Positions 9,527-10,180 of a stretch of DNA of 64,000 nucleotides are shown here, one piece after another; the stretch's first letter is position 1, and the number at the start of each line of letters is the position of its first letter. Below the pieces are notes generated by a model. It saw only the letters and a list, made by a program, of their open reading frames with translations. It ran no database searches and had not been told where the DNA came from. The position numbers and the translations under genes were made by a program. The stretch is from assembly GCF_001442535.1 (NCBI RefSeq), contig NZ_CP013141.1, positions 1,408,372 through 1,472,371 of the forward strand, given 5' to 3'. Origin of the DNA: Lysobacter antibioticus (lineage in GTDB: Bacteria; Pseudomonadota; Gammaproteobacteria; Xanthomonadales; Xanthomonadaceae).

Positions 9527-10180
9527 GTAGGAGCGGCGCGAGCCGCGACCGCGGTCGTTCAGCGGCTATCGTCGGTCGGGATGGGCGCCTATGTCTCAAC
9601 AGCGTTGCCGTTGCCGTTGCCGTTGCCGTTGCCGAGATTTTGATCTGCTTTGCCGCTTTACCGGTCAAATGGAGACCCGGAGGGCGGCGCACAGGACGTG
9701 CGCCGTTTTTCGATAGGACAAGGATGTCCTATCGAAAAATCCCGGCGCGCGCATCGCACTCGTGGCCTGTGCCCTTGCAGGGAGAGCCCTTTTCTTTGGT
9801 TACCTTTCTTTTGGGCTTAGCAAAAGAAAGTAACCCGGCCGCGTTAGCGGACGGAAGCTTTGCTCTTGCTTGAGGCTTCTCAAAGATCAAGATCAAACGC
9901 CTAAAGCTTCCGCCACTAAAGCGGCGGGTTACTTTCTTTTGTCATAAGCAACAAAAGAAAGGTAACCAAAGAAAAATGCTTTTCTTTAAATCACCGGCCC
10001 GCACGAGCGATGCATACGCGGTGATTTTTCATACGGGACATCCCTGTCCCGATGAAAAACGGCGCGCATCCCTGCGCGCCGCCCTCCGGGTCTTCTGTTG
10101 CCTTCGCGAGTGCGAATCGGCGCATAGCACCATCAAAGGCAACATCAAAGGCAATGGCAATGGCGATGGCAGCCGCAGCG
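9527..10180. repeat. Nested inverted-repeat element, copy B (permuted: centre-R-L-centre)
   Basis: The gap between the response regulator and the CMD gene holds the same family as copy A, but in permuted order. A GTAG-REP lies at 9527, then a centre with five GTTGCC hexamers (9604-9633), then the R arm 9671-9870. A junction follows, then the L arm 9891-10120, then degenerate GGCAA/GGCAAT repeats to about 10180. In the R arm the stem GGCGCAC/GTGCGCC (9686-9704) is followed by a T run. Next comes a 15-bp stem TTTTTCGATAGGACA/TGTCCTATCGAAAAA (9706-9739). No gene is supported within it. Confidence 0.85.

Follow-up and report, generated by a model that had tools for sequence, protein, structure and literature searches.

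The closest described system to the repeat considered here is the RNA family TwoAYGGAY (Rfam RF01731, clan CL00106). According to the cited passages of the papers concerned, which are the source of all statements on published systems here and below, this family was proposed to bind CsrA and its outer stem is not well conserved (PMC4333381); it is listed for human gut, gammaproteobacteria and Clostridiales (PMC2864571). The SELEX consensus of CsrA is RUACARGGAUGU, where ACA and GGA are fully conserved, the repeated motif of CsrB is CAGGA(U/A/C)G, the RsmE hexaloop is ANGGAN with variable N, and CsrA bridges sites 10-63 nt apart (PMC7652899). Hairpin 2 of RsmZ also has the form ANGGAN (PMC3791407). 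CsrB and CsrC contain 22 and 14 GGA motifs, respectively, and CsrA is titrated by a few dedicated small RNAs, whose number is two to four in the species mentioned there (PMC11882849). A different class, the REP/BIME elements, comprises extragenic, high-copy palindromes of alternating orientation, and the definition of REPs includes the head GT(A/G)G before the palindrome (PMC2817692).

The repeat resembles TwoAYGGAY in having two adjacent hairpins with AYGGAY-like loops and, in the copies from other genera, an outer stem. It differs in that the copies of the genome under study score below the family cut-off, have no outer stem and often lack the loop Y, and in that it is dispersed and present in high copy number, unlike the family as described in the cited passages (PMC4333381, PMC2864571). 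With the sponge RNAs CsrB, CsrC, RsmY and RsmZ it shares GGA in hairpin loops, the context CAGGA(U/A/C)G and several sites per RNA (PMC7652899, PMC11882849), but it consists of dispersed two-site units rather than one dedicated many-site small RNA. Like REP/BIME elements it is extragenic, palindromic, of high copy number and of alternating orientation (PMC2817692). Unlike them, it combines several hairpins with a long one whose stem is AT-rich, its loops are conserved whereas its stems vary, and its units begin with ACCCGGAGGG, the head GT(A/G)G of the cited definition being absent. No description of a dispersed CsrA-binding repeat in Lysobacter or its relatives was recognised in open-licence PMC full text. 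From the sequence comparisons below, we consider the repeat to be probably a mobile, high-copy element encoding a putative two-site CsrA/RsmA-binding RNA, perhaps a distributed sponge.

Structure of the repeat unit

The window, that is, the whole 64-kb stretch of DNA that was analysed, contains eight copies of a unit of approximately 230 nt, arranged as four L/R pairs (A to D). One of these units holds the stems at 9685-9739 described in the original prediction, and every stem quoted there is present in the sequence. A unit starts with the head ACCCGGAGGG, which is followed by hairpins 1 and 2; after a spacer come the long hairpin GGTTAC...GTAACC and, last, a short GC hairpin. In the R-type core of copy B (9674..9742, plus strand; covariance model score 89.2 bits), hairpin 1 (9685-9705) is formed by GGCGCAC/GTGCGCC plus an outer C-G pair, and hairpin 2 (9706-9739) by TTTTTCGATAGGACA/TGTCCTATCGAAAAA. 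Both hairpins appear in the predicted RNA fold of this core, together with a mini-hairpin CCC-GGA-GGG formed by the head, here CCCGGAGGG; the fold has z = -6.5, and 0 of 200 shuffled sequences were as stable. The long hairpin of the same unit, GGTTACCTTTCTTTTG...CAAAAGAAAGTAACC (9798..9835, plus strand), was identified in the sequence and in alignment A1, and its loop has no GGA.

The L-type core of copy B (10023..10092, minus strand; 100.5 bits, fold z -5.9) faces the R-type core. The other pairs are copy A with L-type core 3002..3071 (minus strand; 92.5 bits, fold z -4.3, T run in an alternative pairing) and R-type core 3204..3272 (plus strand; 82.4 bits); copy C with L-type core 43393..43462 (minus strand; 100.3 bits) and R-type core 43655..43723 (plus strand; 89.2 bits); and copy D with R-type core 62031..62113 (minus strand; 38.0 bits), where alignment A1 shows a 14-nt insertion separating the hairpins, and L-type core 62267..62336 (plus strand; 99.2 bits, fold z -5.9).

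Several other repeats were seen in the window. REP-like repeats GTAGGAGCGGCGCGAGCCGCGACCGCG at 9527-9553 and at the approximate positions 2805, 43195, 61810 and 62510 flank the units and make up composite extragenic arrays with them. Arrays of GTTGCC / GGCAAC hexamers, whose number differs between copies, adjoin the unit heads at 9604-9634 and 62157-62200. Tandem runs of the heptamer GGGAATC lie immediately 3' of gene stops at 9440-9483 and 11694-11720, and a five-copy direct repeat with 124/127-nt spacing occupies 31474-32226. Many of the genera examined have long hairpins of the type GGTTACTTTTCTTTG...CAAAGAAAAGTAACTCG (9798-9835 and equivalents) located 3' of the hairpins with GGA. Six open frames crossing the units were considered as a possible translated repeat; they yielded no Pfam family above the cut-off and one weak unrelated match.

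Conservation of the hairpin loops

The most constrained feature of the repeat is the GGA in the hairpin loops, which the original prediction had missed while correctly noting the paired changes in the stems. Departures from the commonest letter were counted in 198 gap-free copies from the genome. They affect 2 of 1188 sites for the GGA letters, 4 of 1188 for the adjoining C, A and G, 380 of 7920 (4.8%) for the stems and 142 of 716 (20%) for the N positions of the loop consensus CANGGANG. With identical copies counted once, these values become 2/564 for GGA, 226/3760 for the stems and 74/351 for N. GGA is present in both loops in 196 of the 198 copies, and hairpin 2 matches CANGGANG exactly in 195. 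These counts cover 198 of 211 matches; the 13 omitted ones include three that have lost hairpin 2 (L069:12297, L075:6484, L239:138), one whose hairpin-1 loop has no GGA (L095:2801), and one that overlaps a stronger match on the opposite strand and is probably spurious (L250:4425, 23.4 bits).

The loops of both hairpins follow CANGGANG, with the exception that the R-type hairpin 1 is shorter and lacks the first N, which yields CAGGACG, the CsrB form. In copy B the GGA of hairpin 1 lies at 9694..9696 (plus strand, context CA-GGA-CG) and that of hairpin 2 at 9722..9724 (plus strand); the context of the latter, ACA-A-GGA-UGU, fits the ACARGGAUGU part of RUACARGGAUGU, and the spacing of 25 nt between the two GGAs is inside the published bridging range (PMC7652899). 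The base after GGA varies (T in 39 and C in 37 R-type copies of hairpin 2), whereas its partner A is fixed, which fits ANGGAN and not plain repair of a palindrome. At the level of sequence, the loop conservation is thus the published recognition pattern of CsrA/RsmA. On the other hand, the stems have 8-15 pairs and are more stable than those of the SELEX winners, most of which have no more than four pairs in a row, and a very stable fold may be an obstacle to CsrA (PMC7652899).

The same holds outside the genome. In alignment A5, which contains 70 distinct rows from several genera, GGA is retained in 68 of 70 loops of hairpin 1 and in 67 of the 68 hairpin-2 loops with letters, and the C-G pair adjacent to the loop is invariant (70/70 and 68/68). 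The loops of a further alignment, A7, provide no evidence for GGA, since its loci came from a pattern demanding CANGGATG twice. GGA is also found in additional hairpins: among 176 extra perfect hairpins of at least seven pairs around 114 of the 116 distant loci, the loop plus closing pair contains GGA in 42 cases and the strand control TCC in 13. The respective numbers are 32 and 12 of 147 when identical hairpins are counted once, and 40 and 10 for the loop alone (all hairpins). Some relatives have a third GGA hairpin (L167, L170, L172, L176, L053). In Methylococcales records (L272, L290, L292, L293, L306, L328) the element is accompanied by a separate hairpin, CAAATCGGCAGGA..GCCGATTTG, whose loop also contains GGA.

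The candidate partner protein is encoded in nearly all genomes considered. The CsrA family (PF02599) was found in 39 of 41 genomes, with two members in the genome under study. The main csrA gene (C1:1553603-1553758) is typical; its product begins with MLILTRRVGETLMIGD and has matches among CsrA-family chains of solved structure, nine distinct sequences in all, where 2jpp and the 2mf entries are RsmE with RNA. The second member (C1:4041669-4041818, 51.5 bits) is a divergent homologue. The genes gacS, gacA, ladS and retS are listed in Lysobacter in the cited passage (PMC7366521).

Covariation in the stems

The original prediction stated that the fold rather than the sequence of the stems is kept. 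This is supported both within the genome and across genera: when copies are collected and aligned, changes on both sides of the stems exceed the shuffled expectation in the genome itself and in relatives. Alignment A2 comprises 26 distinct sequences out of 51 regular-expression matches in the loci L001-L030, a search that misses units without the head motif. Here both-side changes occur in 7 of 15 tested pairs, in 54 cells against 18.7 after shuffling, and 98.2% of the cells are paired compared with at most 46.0% when the partner strand is slid. In A5 (77 matches from 48 hand-picked loci) both-side changes affect 20 of 23 stem pairs, in 423 cells against 99.6 after shuffling; one-sided (G-U) changes number 3, and 28 cells are unpaired. 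A7 (64 matches from 52 of 116 loci, 62 distinct rows from gammaproteobacteria and some metagenome bins) gives 21 of 23 pairs and 440 cells against 113. The copies in these alignments are related to one another, and A5 and A7 were fitted to the structure. In some relatives the stems are replaced outright, and at L040, L044 and L051, for instance, G-C pairs stand in place of the T run.

The comparison of orthologous places in two species is less clear. Of 30 loci of the second species (G017), 22 with an orthologue in the examined sequence of the genome under study were considered, and 20 could be compared position by position. These show 23 both-side changes in 11 places against 26 other changed pair cells, and GGA is changed at 1 of 120 sites. 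Several stem flips are accompanied by changes in the neighbouring loop, which suggests gene conversion or reinsertion/replacement rather than base-by-base compensation; thus this comparison alone does not show compensation in place.

Imperfect pairs point in both directions. In A7 there are 35 G-U pairs and 14 A-C pairs (p 0.004, relatedness not corrected), an excess that speaks for RNA, or for one DNA strand, as does the preponderance of GGA over TCC in the extra hairpins. The ratio in A5 has the same direction, with 3 G-U pairs to one A-C pair, but 3 G-U pairs among 1424 cells (innermost pairs excluded) is a scarcity that would be odd for an RNA selected only as RNA. The copies of the genome itself have 33 G-U and 41 A-C pairs, but 37 of the A-C pairs are the single loop-closing pair of the R-type hairpin 2, and 17 of the G-U pairs represent one position in one subfamily.

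Copy number and genomic location

A covariance model (R1) was built from the 26 distinct copies of A2. It has at least 150 matches in the genome, which is one contig of 5,765,140 bases. The unselected first 1.2 Mb contain 62 matches, or 70 in 1.264 Mb with the window; a further 141 come from 60 regions chosen around known matches, which brings the total to 211 in 2.08 Mb, including one that is probably spurious. Extrapolating from 62 per 1.2 Mb, we infer about 300 units per genome.

The 211 matches form 117 clusters, and none lies within a gene called by our codon-usage gene caller. The neighbouring genes are convergent for 60 clusters, co-directional for 50 and divergent for 3 (113 clusters with both neighbours called; the remaining four are at an edge). 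The unselected 1.2 Mb contain 32 gaps with the element and 543 others of 100 bp or more. Of these, 20 and 77, respectively, are convergent (Fisher p 2e-9), whereas 1 and 152 are divergent (p 7e-4); in both comparisons the element itself lengthens the gap. Orientation alternates strictly in 77 of the 80 clusters of two or more units. Single units in co-directional gaps have no strand bias, 7 being sense and 7 antisense (n=14). No promoter-like sites were found by a scan of 9400-10320, which proves nothing.

At one place the second species (G017, locus L205) has a 385-nt insertion containing a unit and REP-like sequence, and the corresponding place of the genome under study (L255) is empty, with no clean target-site duplication visible at this site.

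Related RNA families and distribution

No Rfam family matches the window at the gathering score. TwoAYGGAY reaches 40.5 bits at best in the genome under study (cut-off 43) and 39.4 bits at L040; RsmW, a member of the same clan, scores 27.8 bits at L001, and the latter two values are also below the respective cut-offs. TwoAYGGAY scores above the cut-off in 6 of 41 genomes; in three of these (G001, G003, G016), which belong to the same genus, the repeat head was seen and the matches are members of the repeat, and the other three genomes lie outside the genus. Of nine distant loci scanned with Rfam, two have TwoAYGGAY under the cut-off and seven have none. An outer stem of at least eight pairs is formed by 3 of 207 flank pairs in the genome under study, compared with 1.6% in shuffled sequences, and by 21 of 41 flank pairs in other genera, compared with 6.8%. 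The models of CsrB (RF00018) and RsmZ (RF00166) have no matches in the genome at E <= 0.001. This would leave room for another titrating RNA; the argument is weak, as these RNAs diverge.

R1 matches were found in 25 of 41 genomes: in all 20 of the genus (own genome included), in 2 of the 5 further genomes of the family and in 3 of 16 of the order, where the matched sequences in G033 and G040 look unlike the repeat. With model R2 and a limit of E <= 0.001, matches come from 75 of the 250 genomes and 30 of the 78 genera of the order, with 20 candidates scored per genome and some genomes having one weak match only. A pattern scan of named genomes gave at least 116 stretches. Among the matches listed are Lysobacter, Xanthomonas, Stenotrophomonas, Luteimonas, Pseudoxanthomonas, Dyella, Rhodanobacter, Tahibacter, Methylomonas, Methylobacter, Aquisalimonas, Saccharospirillum and Arsukibacterium. 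A match in an Akkermansia bin has no such hairpins by eye and was taken as chance.

Alternative explanations

The main rival is a mobile palindrome of the REP/BIME type acting at the DNA level, whose single-stranded hairpins are recognised by a transposase, with the GGA loop as the recognition mark and no function in RNA. Several features of the repeat are as expected for such an element: the alternating orientation of the units (+- in 38 and -+ in 32 of 113 clusters), the adjoining REP-like repeats GTAGGAGC, the difference in presence at one place between two species, and the nearly exclusive Watson-Crick pairing in A5. It also counts in favour of this explanation that the genome has three matches to Y1 transposases (C1:29460-31298 and 2783727-2783996; L383-L385). 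Two of them are near each other, one of these has an internal stop, and they represent a candidate RAYT moving the REPs. However, the units lack the head GT(A/G)G of the cited definition (PMC2817692), and GGA loops recur in additional hairpins of other stem and position, among them the third hairpins of L167, L170, L172 and L176. Moreover, the conserved and variable loop positions match ANGGAN, and the nearest Rfam families, TwoAYGGAY and RsmW, share a clan and are proposed or named as binders of CsrA/RsmA. We therefore regard an element with no role in RNA as unlikely.

The original prediction offered a different function, in which hairpin 1 and the T run form an intrinsic terminator and hairpin 2 competes for the same T run, as in an attenuator. 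Indeed, in the genome under study the first four T are intact in all 76 R copies, no T of the run is retained in fewer than 98% of the 122 L copies, and the clusters favour convergent gaps, where terminators also lie. The proposed pairing of the T run with the next stem is seen in three of the four window units that were folded, and fails in the L-type unit of copy A, where the T run pairs with GGAGGG. In some relatives, however, the tract is lost: at the four outermost pairs of hairpin 2 in A5, 42-47 of the 66-70 paired rows have U-A and the others G-C, C-G, A-U or, once, U-G. The stem is thus kept even without the U tract, and in about a third of the rows the tract is replaced by G-C pairs. 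A terminator scan of 9400-10320 gave 3 candidates against 1.7 expected from shuffled sequences; they include stem 1 of the L-type core of copy B but not the R-arm stem. Attenuators are expected in leaders, and with only 3 of 113 clusters between divergent genes this mode of regulation is not supported, the possible case being a leader in a co-directional gap. As the conservation of GGA also has no explanation here, we find the terminator and attenuator very improbable.

Least credible of all is a functionless repeat whose arms owe their continued similarity to template switching or gene conversion: the flips that coincide with loop changes at orthologous loci, the lack of an excess of both-side changes there and the scarcity of G-U in A5 would suit it, but repair of the arms explains neither the near invariance of GGA beside strongly varying N positions nor the excess of G-U over A-C in A7.

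A putative distributed CsrA/RsmA-binding element

The stems change while the loop GGA almost never does, and hence the repeat probably spreads CsrA/RsmA sites over the genome. The proposed mechanism is as follows. The repeat would be mobile and non-coding, and its transcript would fold into a pair of neighbouring hairpins, each with the recognition loop CANGGANG. One CsrA dimer can bind two sites of one RNA, and the two GGAs of a unit might serve as such a pair. The units are intergenic, about half of their clusters lying between convergent genes, and they are presumably transcribed, mostly by read-through. It is quite probable that RsmA binds them. All units together could then constitute a distributed RsmA sponge, and locally they might produce RsmA-bound 3' regions. 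That the summed units titrate RsmA is conceivable, though we lean slightly against it; an effect on the flanking mRNAs is rather doubtful. Several observations stand against an RNA element: the long stable stems, the rarity of G-U in A5, the absence of promoter-like sites in the scan and of strand bias, the absence of the outer stem in the genus, the poor representation of TwoAYGGAY at distant loci, and both-side changes at orthologous places that are not in excess.

A broader hypothesis, which we advance tentatively as something short of probable, is that a mobile element widespread in gammaproteobacteria carries a CsrA/RsmA-binding RNA as its conserved cargo, and that its copies, amplified into the hundreds within gene 3' regions, act as a genome-wide sponge that sets the level of the free regulator and pulls flanking transcripts into its regulon. 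If so, the amplification of a repeat would determine how strongly a global regulator is buffered, with differences even between closely related species. Extragenic repeats that are usually treated as REP-like would thereby gain a function, and the proposal that TwoAYGGAY binds CsrA would become directly testable.
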